This document shows, one piece after another, positions 19,317-38,690 of a DNA stretch of 64,000 nt. A program made the position numbers and the translations under genes. Within the stretch, counting starts at the first letter, position 1; every line of letters starts with the position of its first letter. The notes beneath the pieces were generated by a model that had not been told where the DNA came from, made no database searches, and worked only from the letters and a program-made list of their open reading frames with translations. Source of the stretch: Fervidobacterium nodosum Rt17-B1 (GTDB lineage Bacteria; Thermotogota; Thermotogae; Thermotogales; Fervidobacteriaceae); contig NC_009718.1 in NCBI RefSeq assembly GCF_000017545.1, positions 1-64,000 on the forward strand, in the 5' to 3' direction.

Positions 19317-19538
19317 ATGTGGATTTTCACGTTGATTGGAATTTTGTTTGTAGCTCTGCTTTTGGTTACATTCATTCCTATTTTAGCTCCAATATTTGTC
19401 TGGATACTTGGTATTTTAATTTTTGCTGTTATGTTGGCTCTAGCTTACGTTTTCTTTATAGCAATTGTCCCTGTAATAGCAATTGTTTTCCTTGTTTGGA
19501 TTATCTATAGTGCTTTTAAAACTTGGCGAAGAAAGTAA
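19317..19538 (+). CDS. Small two-to-three-helix membrane protein
   Basis: A 73-residue, almost entirely hydrophobic protein with a basic C-terminal tail (TWRRK). I do not recognise a family. It lies 34 bases downstream of the sigma-54 activator with its own GGGGATGATG Shine-Dalgarno, so it probably belongs to the same transcript. A promoter for the following mini-operon begins inside its 3' end. Confidence 0.65.
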   Translation: MWIFTLIGILFVALLLVTFIPILAPIFVWILGILIFAVMLALAYVFFIAIVPVIAIVFLVWIIYSAFKTWRRK

Positions 19539-19550
19539 AAAGTATATAAT
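19523..19550 (+). promoter_or_regulatory. Promoter of the small-ORF operon
   Basis: TTGGCG (19523-19528), 16-base spacer, TATAAT (19545-19550). Predicted start near 19556, immediately before the long hairpin leader. Confidence 0.55.
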
Positions 19551-19564
19551 GTAAATTTTTTGTT

Positions 19565-19656
19565 AAAACCTTCCTTTCTGGTAGATATATCATTTTGCCT
19601 GCGCAGGTGAAAATTAGGTAAGATGGTATTCGATATTCCAGAAAGGAGGTTTTTTA
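19565..19656 (+). promoter_or_regulatory. Structured RNA leader that sequesters the Shine-Dalgarno
   Basis: The 5' arm AAAACCTTCCTTTCTGG (19565-19581) pairs with CCAGAAAGGAGGTTTT (19638-19653) over 16 base pairs with one bulged A. The 3' arm contains the whole AAAGGAGGT ribosome binding site of the next gene. A near-palindrome centred on CCTGCGCAGG (19592-19614) forms an inner hairpin. A T tract (19650-19656) follows the outer stem, so it could also act as a transcription terminator. No known riboswitch class was recognised. Confidence 0.7.
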
Positions 19657-19658
19657 TT

Positions 19659-19859
19659 ATGAAGAGATTATCAATAAGGTGGTTGATAGGTTATGATGAA
19701 AATAACAAACCGATTTACAGAAGACAAACAATCTCAGTAGACGATTTCTTCGACTTAGCTCATGCCCAAGCTTTTGTTAACATACTCGATAAGTACTCAA
19801 ATTATACATGTGAAAGTGCACAACTTGTTACAACAGAGAATGTGGGTGATACATTATGA
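19659..19859 (+). CDS. DUF1659-like small protein
   Basis: A 66-residue soluble protein. The pattern (LSIRWLIGYDENNKPIYRRQTISV, then a helical stretch) resembles DUF1659 proteins, which in Firmicutes occur next to DUF2922 proteins, as here. The ATG at 19659 is 8 bases after AAAGGAGGT, which is buried in the long leader hairpin. It overlaps the next gene by 4 bases. Family assignment is from memory of the pattern and neighbourhood; function is unknown. Confidence 0.6.
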   Translation: MKRLSIRWLIGYDENNKPIYRRQTISVDDFFDLAHAQAFVNILDKYSNYTCESAQLVTTENVGDTL

Positions 19860-20074
19860 AAAGATTAACGCTTGTATACAGAAAATTAGAAAATGGGCAG
19901 ATGAAGACTTACAGAATAAATATACCAGAACCTGTTGACAATATAAATGTGCAAGAACTTCAGCAAGATATGGAATATTTAAAAGCAATCAATGTTGTTC
20001 CTGATGGTTTTGAACCAGATGAAGCAAGAGTAACGGAAACAAATATCGAAGTTTTAATAAATCTAATAGAATAA
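19856..20074 (+). CDS. DUF2922-like small protein
   Basis: A 72-residue protein beginning LTLVYRKLENGQMKTYRINIPEP and ending in an Asn/Thr-rich helix. This layout resembles DUF2922. It starts inside the stop of the DUF1659-like gene (ATGA overlap), so the two are translated together. DUF1659/DUF2922 pairs are known from Firmicutes but their function is not. The assignment is tentative. Confidence 0.6.
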   Translation: MKRLTLVYRKLENGQMKTYRINIPEPVDNINVQELQQDMEYLKAINVVPDGFEPDEARVTETNIEVLINLIE

Positions 20075-20094
20075 TACTCGGTTGGTGATTGGTT

Positions 20095-20289
20095 ATGAAA
20101 TGGCTTTGGGATATTTTAAAGCTTCTCATGATACTTGTTGAGCGACCTGGTGAAGGTGAGAAAAAGAAAAAAGAAGTTATTGAATTAATGGATGAACTTT
20201 ACGATGAACTTAACATTCAAATACCAAGGGAAGTGTACCACTCTATAGTTAATGTTGCGATAGATTACCTTGCTTTGGTTTTATTTTAA
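20095..20289 (+). CDS. Small protein of unknown function, third gene of mini-operon
   Basis: A 64-residue product with an amphipathic N-terminus (MKWLWDILKLLMILV), a charged centre (GEGEKKKKEVIELMDELYDEL) and a hydrophobic C-terminus. I do not recognise it. It follows the DUF2922-like gene by 20 bases with a GGTGATT Shine-Dalgarno, and precedes a strong terminator. In Firmicutes the DUF1659/DUF2922 pair is often followed by a tiny membrane-associated protein, which fits this position. Confidence 0.55.
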   Translation: MKWLWDILKLLMILVERPGEGEKKKKEVIELMDELYDELNIQIPREVYHSIVNVAIDYLALVLF

Positions 20290-20307: not shown

Positions 20308-20347
20308 AAAAAATACCGGTAGCCTTTCTGGCTACCGGTATTTTTCT
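20308..20347. terminator. Bidirectional terminator
   Basis: AAAAATACCGGTAGCC pairs with GGCTACCGGTATTTTT around a TTTCT loop. It serves the plus-strand mini-operon and the minus-strand lipoprotein gene. Confidence 0.88.
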
Positions 20348-36409: not shown

Positions 36410-36485
36410 TCCGGCGTAGCTCAACCGGCAGAGCGGGTGGCTGTTAACCACTAGGTTGGGGGTTCGAGTCCCTCCGCCGGAGCCA
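36410..36485 (+). tRNA. tRNA-Asn (GTT), copy 1
   Basis: A 76-base cloverleaf including encoded CCA. The acceptor stem pairs TCCGGCG with CGCCGGA. The anticodon loop CTGTTAA gives anticodon GTT. The T-loop GTTCGAGTC is intact. It is identical to the copy at 38615-38690. Confidence 0.97.
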
Positions 36486-38614: not shown

Positions 38615-38690
38615 TCCGGCGTAGCTCAACCGGCAGAGCGGGTGGCTGTTAACCACTAGGTTGGGGGTTCGAGTCCCTCCGCCGGAGCCA
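38615..38690 (+). tRNA. tRNA-Asn (GTT), copy 2
   Basis: Identical over all 76 bases to the copy at 36410, including the encoded CCA. It has its own strong promoter and a strong terminator. Confidence 0.97.

Follow-up and report, generated by a model that had tools for sequence, protein, structure and literature searches.

In the window (the whole 64,000-nucleotide stretch of the Fervidobacterium nodosum Rt17-B1 genome that we analyzed), a leader with a long inverted repeat precedes an operon of three short open reading frames (Table 1), all of which are present as the first-pass annotation had claimed. The first two encode proteins in or near the Pfam families DUF1659 and DUF2922, both of unknown function. 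The match to DUF1659 (PF07872) scores 20.1 bits and falls below the Pfam cutoff of 24.1; the match to DUF2922 (PF11148) scores 35.2 bits and exceeds the cutoff of 25.5. In the literature searched, a single paper mentions DUF1659, in passing, and none mentions DUF2922. The predicted structure of the DUF2922 protein is a confident beta-beta-alpha-beta model, for which comparison with PDB and viral structures gave nothing below E 0.001, and a search for DUF2922 in phages or plasmids gave no matches.

Table 1. Features of the DUF1659-DUF2922-ORF3 locus and of the distant sigma-like gene
Feature	Coordinates	Strand	Remarks
Upstream ORF, 73 aa, membrane-protein-like	19317-19538	+	Co-directional; no terminator found between ORF and promoter
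Sigma70-like promoter of the first-pass annotation	19523-19550	+	TTGGCG-N16-TATAAT; overlaps end of upstream ORF
GTTAAA, -35-like element	19562-19567	+	Most Fervidobacterium and Thermosipho leaders have GTTAA[A/C]
Hairpin 5' arm	19565-19581	+	Spacer between -35 and -10 of the conserved promoter
GTAGATATAT-N5-TG, conserved promoter element	19581-19597	+	GTAGATATAT at 19581-19590, TG at 19596-19597; predicted start at or near G19597
Inner stem	19587-19629	+	15 bp, 19587-19601 with 19615-19629 (predicted fold)
Start-site palindrome CCTGCGCAGG	19598-19607	.	Kept as palindrome, not as sequence, across Thermotogota
Hairpin 3' arm	19638-19653	+	Holds SD GGAGGT (19645-19650); T run 19650-19655
DUF1659-like protein, 66 aa	19659-19859	+	E 6e-4, under Pfam cutoff
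DUF2922 protein, 72 aa	19856-20074	+	Pfam match above cutoff; 83 of 98 searched Thermotogota genomes have an orthologue
Third gene (ORF3), 64 aa	20095-20289	+	Conserved motif LVExPxxGxxKK; no Pfam match
Terminator-like hairpin 3' of operon	20309-20345	+	Predicted
Sigma-like protein, 134 aa	635508-635912	-	Second GTAGATAYATN5TG site upstream

The leader is predicted to fold into the 16-bp outer stem that the first-pass annotation described, with 19565-19571 and 19573-19581 paired with 19638-19653 around a one-base bulge at 19572. Folding of 19551-19700 gives a minimum free energy of -45.8 kcal/mol, compared with -27.6 +/- 3.4 kcal/mol for shuffled sequences (z = -5.4; equaled by 0 of 200 shuffles). 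The full Shine-Dalgarno (SD) sequence does lie within the 3' arm, and the second near-palindrome reported inside the hairpin, CCTGCGCAGG, was recovered as well. The six T's said to follow the 3' arm are there, but the first four of them are part of the arm. In the window, 18 inverted repeats were reported, this hairpin among them. The leader and the 3' arm of the hairpin each have a single copy in the genome (1,948,941 bp in one contig, scanned by pattern matching), and we rejected a dispersed repeat or mobile-element arm on that ground.

Rfam covariance models, run over the whole window at gathering score, returned only two tRNAs and nothing at the leader, in agreement with the earlier statement that it falls into no recognized RNA class; a known riboswitch or RNA thermometer class was rejected accordingly. 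The two tRNA genes (36410-36482 and 38615-38687) have identical Rfam scores and lie about 2.2 kb apart.

A conserved promoter block and a sigma-region-2-like protein

We gathered orthologous loci via the DUF2922 protein, which located them in 35 of 45 genomes of the order and in 83 of 98 of the phylum Thermotogota. Across 39 Thermotogales leaders, a promoter-like block is followed by a G+C palindrome and then by the SD. The block in Fervidobacterium and Thermosipho is usually GTTAA[A/C], about 12 bases, and (C)GTAGATAYAT; most other genera carry GTATACATTCGTATACTATATA or a shorter CGTAT form, and genus g13 carries a GGACT form. In F. nodosum the block reads GTTAAA-N13-GTAGATATAT-N5-TG. Because the distance from the -10 element to the start is 7 bases in Thermotoga maritima (PMC3636130), and because a TG or TGG is conserved at the edge of the palindrome, we infer that transcription starts near 19597, downstream of the 5' arm. 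With a start at that position, the sequence that the first-pass annotation took for the 5' arm of a leader would be promoter spacer and not transcript.

That annotation had instead proposed the sigma70-like promoter at the end of the upstream gene. It matches at 10 of 12 positions, but matches of this kind are not above chance (9 found against 6.2 +/- 2.9 expected), and it has no counterpart in relatives. The earlier model needs a transcript that begins upstream of the 5' arm, and the conserved block points to one that leaves the arm out; a start that excludes the arm is what the annotation itself had named as refuting its reading. The outer stem itself is not shared across the 39 orthologous Thermotogales leaders.

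The sequence GTAGATAYATN5TG has exactly two sites in the genome, the operon promoter and 636197-636213, and a reversed control has none, making this a candidate two-site regulon. The second site lies upstream of an unlinked gene whose 134-aa product is a candidate for a protein that resembles only sigma region 2. The product is related to a small protein encoded directly 3' of ORF3 in Thermosipho, Thermotoga, and others, and, of three relatives tested, two exceed the Pfam Sigma70_r2 cutoff (E 6e-7 and 1e-7). The structured core of its AlphaFold model superimposes on sigma region 2 of solved polymerases at about 2 A rmsd over 73 to 75 residues, with E values all >0.1, and the reading frame ends soon after region 2. 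In Fervidobacterium and the sister genus, each of the nine loci examined has the GTAGATAYAT element ahead of the sigma-like gene, with a sigmaA-type promoter adjoining it. This association, which is one of position only, points to the sigma-like protein as a candidate driver of the operon. The sigma-like gene's copy of the element, however, has no evident GTTAA box.

Transcription starts have been studied in T. maritima, and that study reported finding no motif for RpoE, SigH, or FliA (PMC3636130). For an alternative sigma-type factor in Thermotogales, the GTAGATAYAT element now offers a concrete candidate promoter. The description of leader and operon as undescribed is borne out as far as RNA classes go, but the operon does not stand alone: its leader architecture is phylum-wide, and it has a candidate dedicated sigma-like regulator.

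Other features were observed around the sigma-like gene. The palindrome GTATACATNNGTATAC lies beside it in most loci and, in those genomes of Fervidobacterium and its sister genus, nowhere else; it is a candidate operator, found near the sigma-like gene in G012-G016, G019, and G021 and at the DUF1659 promoter in G029. Within about 20 to 60 bases 3' of GTAGATAYAT, loci L091-L097 have a G+C hairpin, often with a sigmaA -35 element (TTGACA) in its stem-loop; a T run comes after the hairpin in several of these loci. Such a hairpin could end a short RNA running from the GTAGATAYAT element over the sigmaA promoter. Several further copies of the sigma-like gene, degenerate and in some cases interrupted by stops, lie no more than about 25 kb from the intact one (G013:C1:1863844-1868732 and G014:C1:335873-344297).

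A palindrome at the predicted start site

The palindrome at the predicted start is retained as symmetry, with a varying sequence, in most genera of Thermotogota. In the 39 Thermotogales leaders, which yield 24 distinct palindromes and 11 distinct central hexamers, the best palindrome close to the predicted start far exceeds what shuffling yields (combined p about 2e-30, each distinct palindrome being entered once, a value that overstates independence because the leaders are related). The held-out loci came mostly from other families of the phylum; among their 27 distinct cases, 16 have p < 0.05 (combined p about 1e-19, subject to the same overstatement), and new palindromes appear there, including GGACGCGCGTCC, GAGGCGCCTC, TGAGTCGACTCA, GGTGATCACC, and GTCAGCGCTGAC. 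The palindrome is absent in several leaders (G040, L149, L154-L156, and L164).

Of 46 cases whose centers were picked for symmetry, 45 and 44 have complementary bases at the two central pairs, with several pair types; given that choice of centers, the shuffle tests are the fair measure. These central pairs could not form in a single hairpin, and their complementarity therefore speaks for a DNA dyad or for contact between RNA molecules rather than for a 5' hairpin. The same two options fit better with a palindrome of 8 to 10 bp that has no spacer and would thus make no useful hairpin. We rejected a plain 5' RNA hairpin, which reaches p < 0.05 in just 16 of 39 leaders. The outer pairs (17 G.T against 11 A.C) do not separate DNA from RNA, and Thermosipho leaders often place the palindrome in the loop of a 6- to 8-bp RNA stem, where a kissing RNA contact could form.

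By eye, no such palindrome is evident at the start or the element of the sigma-like gene. We therefore rejected it as a component of the promoter class, and it seems specific to the leader of this operon. It is conceivable, and we propose it tentatively, that the palindrome represents a new kind of regulatory element in which two-fold symmetry is selected through the center as the sequence shifts between genera. It might be a compact dyad in the DNA, recognized by a dimeric regulator that evolves along with it, or a site through which two mRNAs pair at their 5' ends; the operon would be under the control of a stand-alone sigma-2 protein. A palindrome kept by symmetry and not by sequence, ahead of two families of unknown function in most of a phylum, is an unexplained and easily tested regularity, and together with the candidate stand-alone sigma-2 regulon it is worth following up.

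The long hairpin as a probable silencer of read-through

When the 5' arm is present, the modeled probability that the SD is unpaired is 0.01 at 37 C, 0.05 at 65 C, 0.08 at 70 C, 0.15 at 80 C, and 0.54 at 95 C. For a transcript beginning at 19597, it is 0.26 at 37 C and 0.56 at 65 C, and the structure of that shorter transcript is not unusual (z = -0.06). Burial of the SD, as the first-pass annotation described it, would thus hold for any transcript that carries the 5' arm.

The conserved start point inside the hairpin makes it probable that the hairpin silences only transcripts arriving from the neighboring gene. DUF1659, DUF2922, and ORF3 would be transcribed mainly from the nested promoter (GTTAAA ... 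GTAGATATAT), whose transcripts would omit the 5' arm and leave the SD largely free. Only read-through transcripts of the upstream gene would carry both arms, fold, and hide the SD, so that the hairpin would keep the operon silent against read-through. The stand-alone sigma-region-2-like protein, preceded by the only other copy of the promoter element, would probably drive the operon. A fold-back silencer that contains the operon's own promoter is the most likely interpretation of the hairpin, by analogy with the phage hairpins discussed below, and for the scheme as a whole, nested promoter and sigma-2-like driver included, we regard the evidence as evenly balanced.

We scored the pairing of promoter spacer with SD region among 38 leaders; G014 was left out because a transposase-like insertion lies between its promoter and its DUF1659 gene. 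(In this locus, L032, the insertion is about 1.1 kb, has a transposase-like ORF on the opposite strand, and splits the promoter and palindrome from the operon.) F. nodosum and Fervidobacterium UBA5837 stand out, their own spacer and SD region pairing at -22.6 kcal/mol in each, with stems built from unrelated sequences. The co-directional 73-aa upstream gene is common to six Fervidobacterium loci. In four of these, G014 among them, a clear terminator precedes the promoter and a comparable stem is lacking; the other two, F. nodosum and UBA5837, have the stem and no terminator. With six loci, Fisher's exact test gives p = 0.067, and the alternation of terminator and stem is therefore suggestive only. 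L022 and G005b also show fairly strong spacer-SD pairing (-21.2 kcal/mol); their upstream gene is apparently divergent, and silencing of read-through does not explain their pairing.

The repeat might instead be functionless, with a pyrimidine-rich promoter spacer matching the purine-rich SD region by coincidence. In favor of this, the stem lacks conservation, and cognate pairing over all leaders shows no excess over permuted pairs (p 0.15), as chance matching would have it. Against this, none of the 37 other SD regions pairs as well with the F. nodosum or UBA5837 spacer as its own does, both spacers beat shuffled spacers (p 0.002 and 0.010, respectively), and the two loci with a strong stem are those without a terminator. 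We consider a chance match unlikely.

We find it similarly improbable that the hairpin and its T run are mainly the intrinsic terminator of the 73-aa gene, shifted downstream over the next promoter and SD, with SD burial as a by-product. Such a displacement would account for the six-T run at the end of the 3' arm and for F. nodosum having no other terminator between the upstream gene and the operon where four relatives have one. It sits poorly with the roughly 56 nucleotides between the arms, with four of the six T's being paired in the stem, and with L007, the second species with such a stem, in which no T run follows.

The first-pass annotation envisaged the leader as a thermosensor, riboswitch, or attenuator, which would act on the main transcript of the operon itself. 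This reading has the complete enclosure of the SD by a stable structure in its favor, but we judge it very improbable, given that the stem is not conserved, Rfam has no match, the conserved promoter block would exclude the 5' arm, the shorter transcript has ordinary structure, and the SD scarcely opens at 70 to 80 C. A thermosensor is unlikely because the hairpin is predicted to melt at about 90 to 95 C at the earliest, far above growth temperature, and we rejected an RNA thermometer since the modeled SD does not open near physiological temperature. For a riboswitch, no conserved ligand-binding core was seen.

If it silences by folding back, the hairpin would offer a case, open to testing, in which a cellular operon is insulated from the neighboring gene by a structure that contains its own promoter and apparently replaces a terminator. 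Known systems resemble parts of this scheme. RsoA is a separate small protein that supplies a sigma-2 domain, and the Thermotogales protein is likewise small and resembles only sigma region 2, a likeness drawn from size and sigma-2 resemblance. Hairpins that sequester the ribosome binding site (RBS) occur in phage T4 at I-TevI, I-TevII, I-TevIII, segB, soc, and gene e; there the RBS is hidden in transcripts that begin at upstream promoters, whereas those from the dedicated promoter include too little sequence for the hairpin to form (PMC2988022). The F. nodosum leader would work in the same way: in the predicted fold, a stable hairpin pairs the SD of the long transcript, and the conserved promoter block predicts a dedicated promoter whose transcripts exclude the 5' arm. 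It differs from the T4 hairpins in belonging to a cellular operon of a thermophile, in having the promoter spacer itself as its 5' arm, and in being known from sequence, with a clear stem in just two Fervidobacterium loci.
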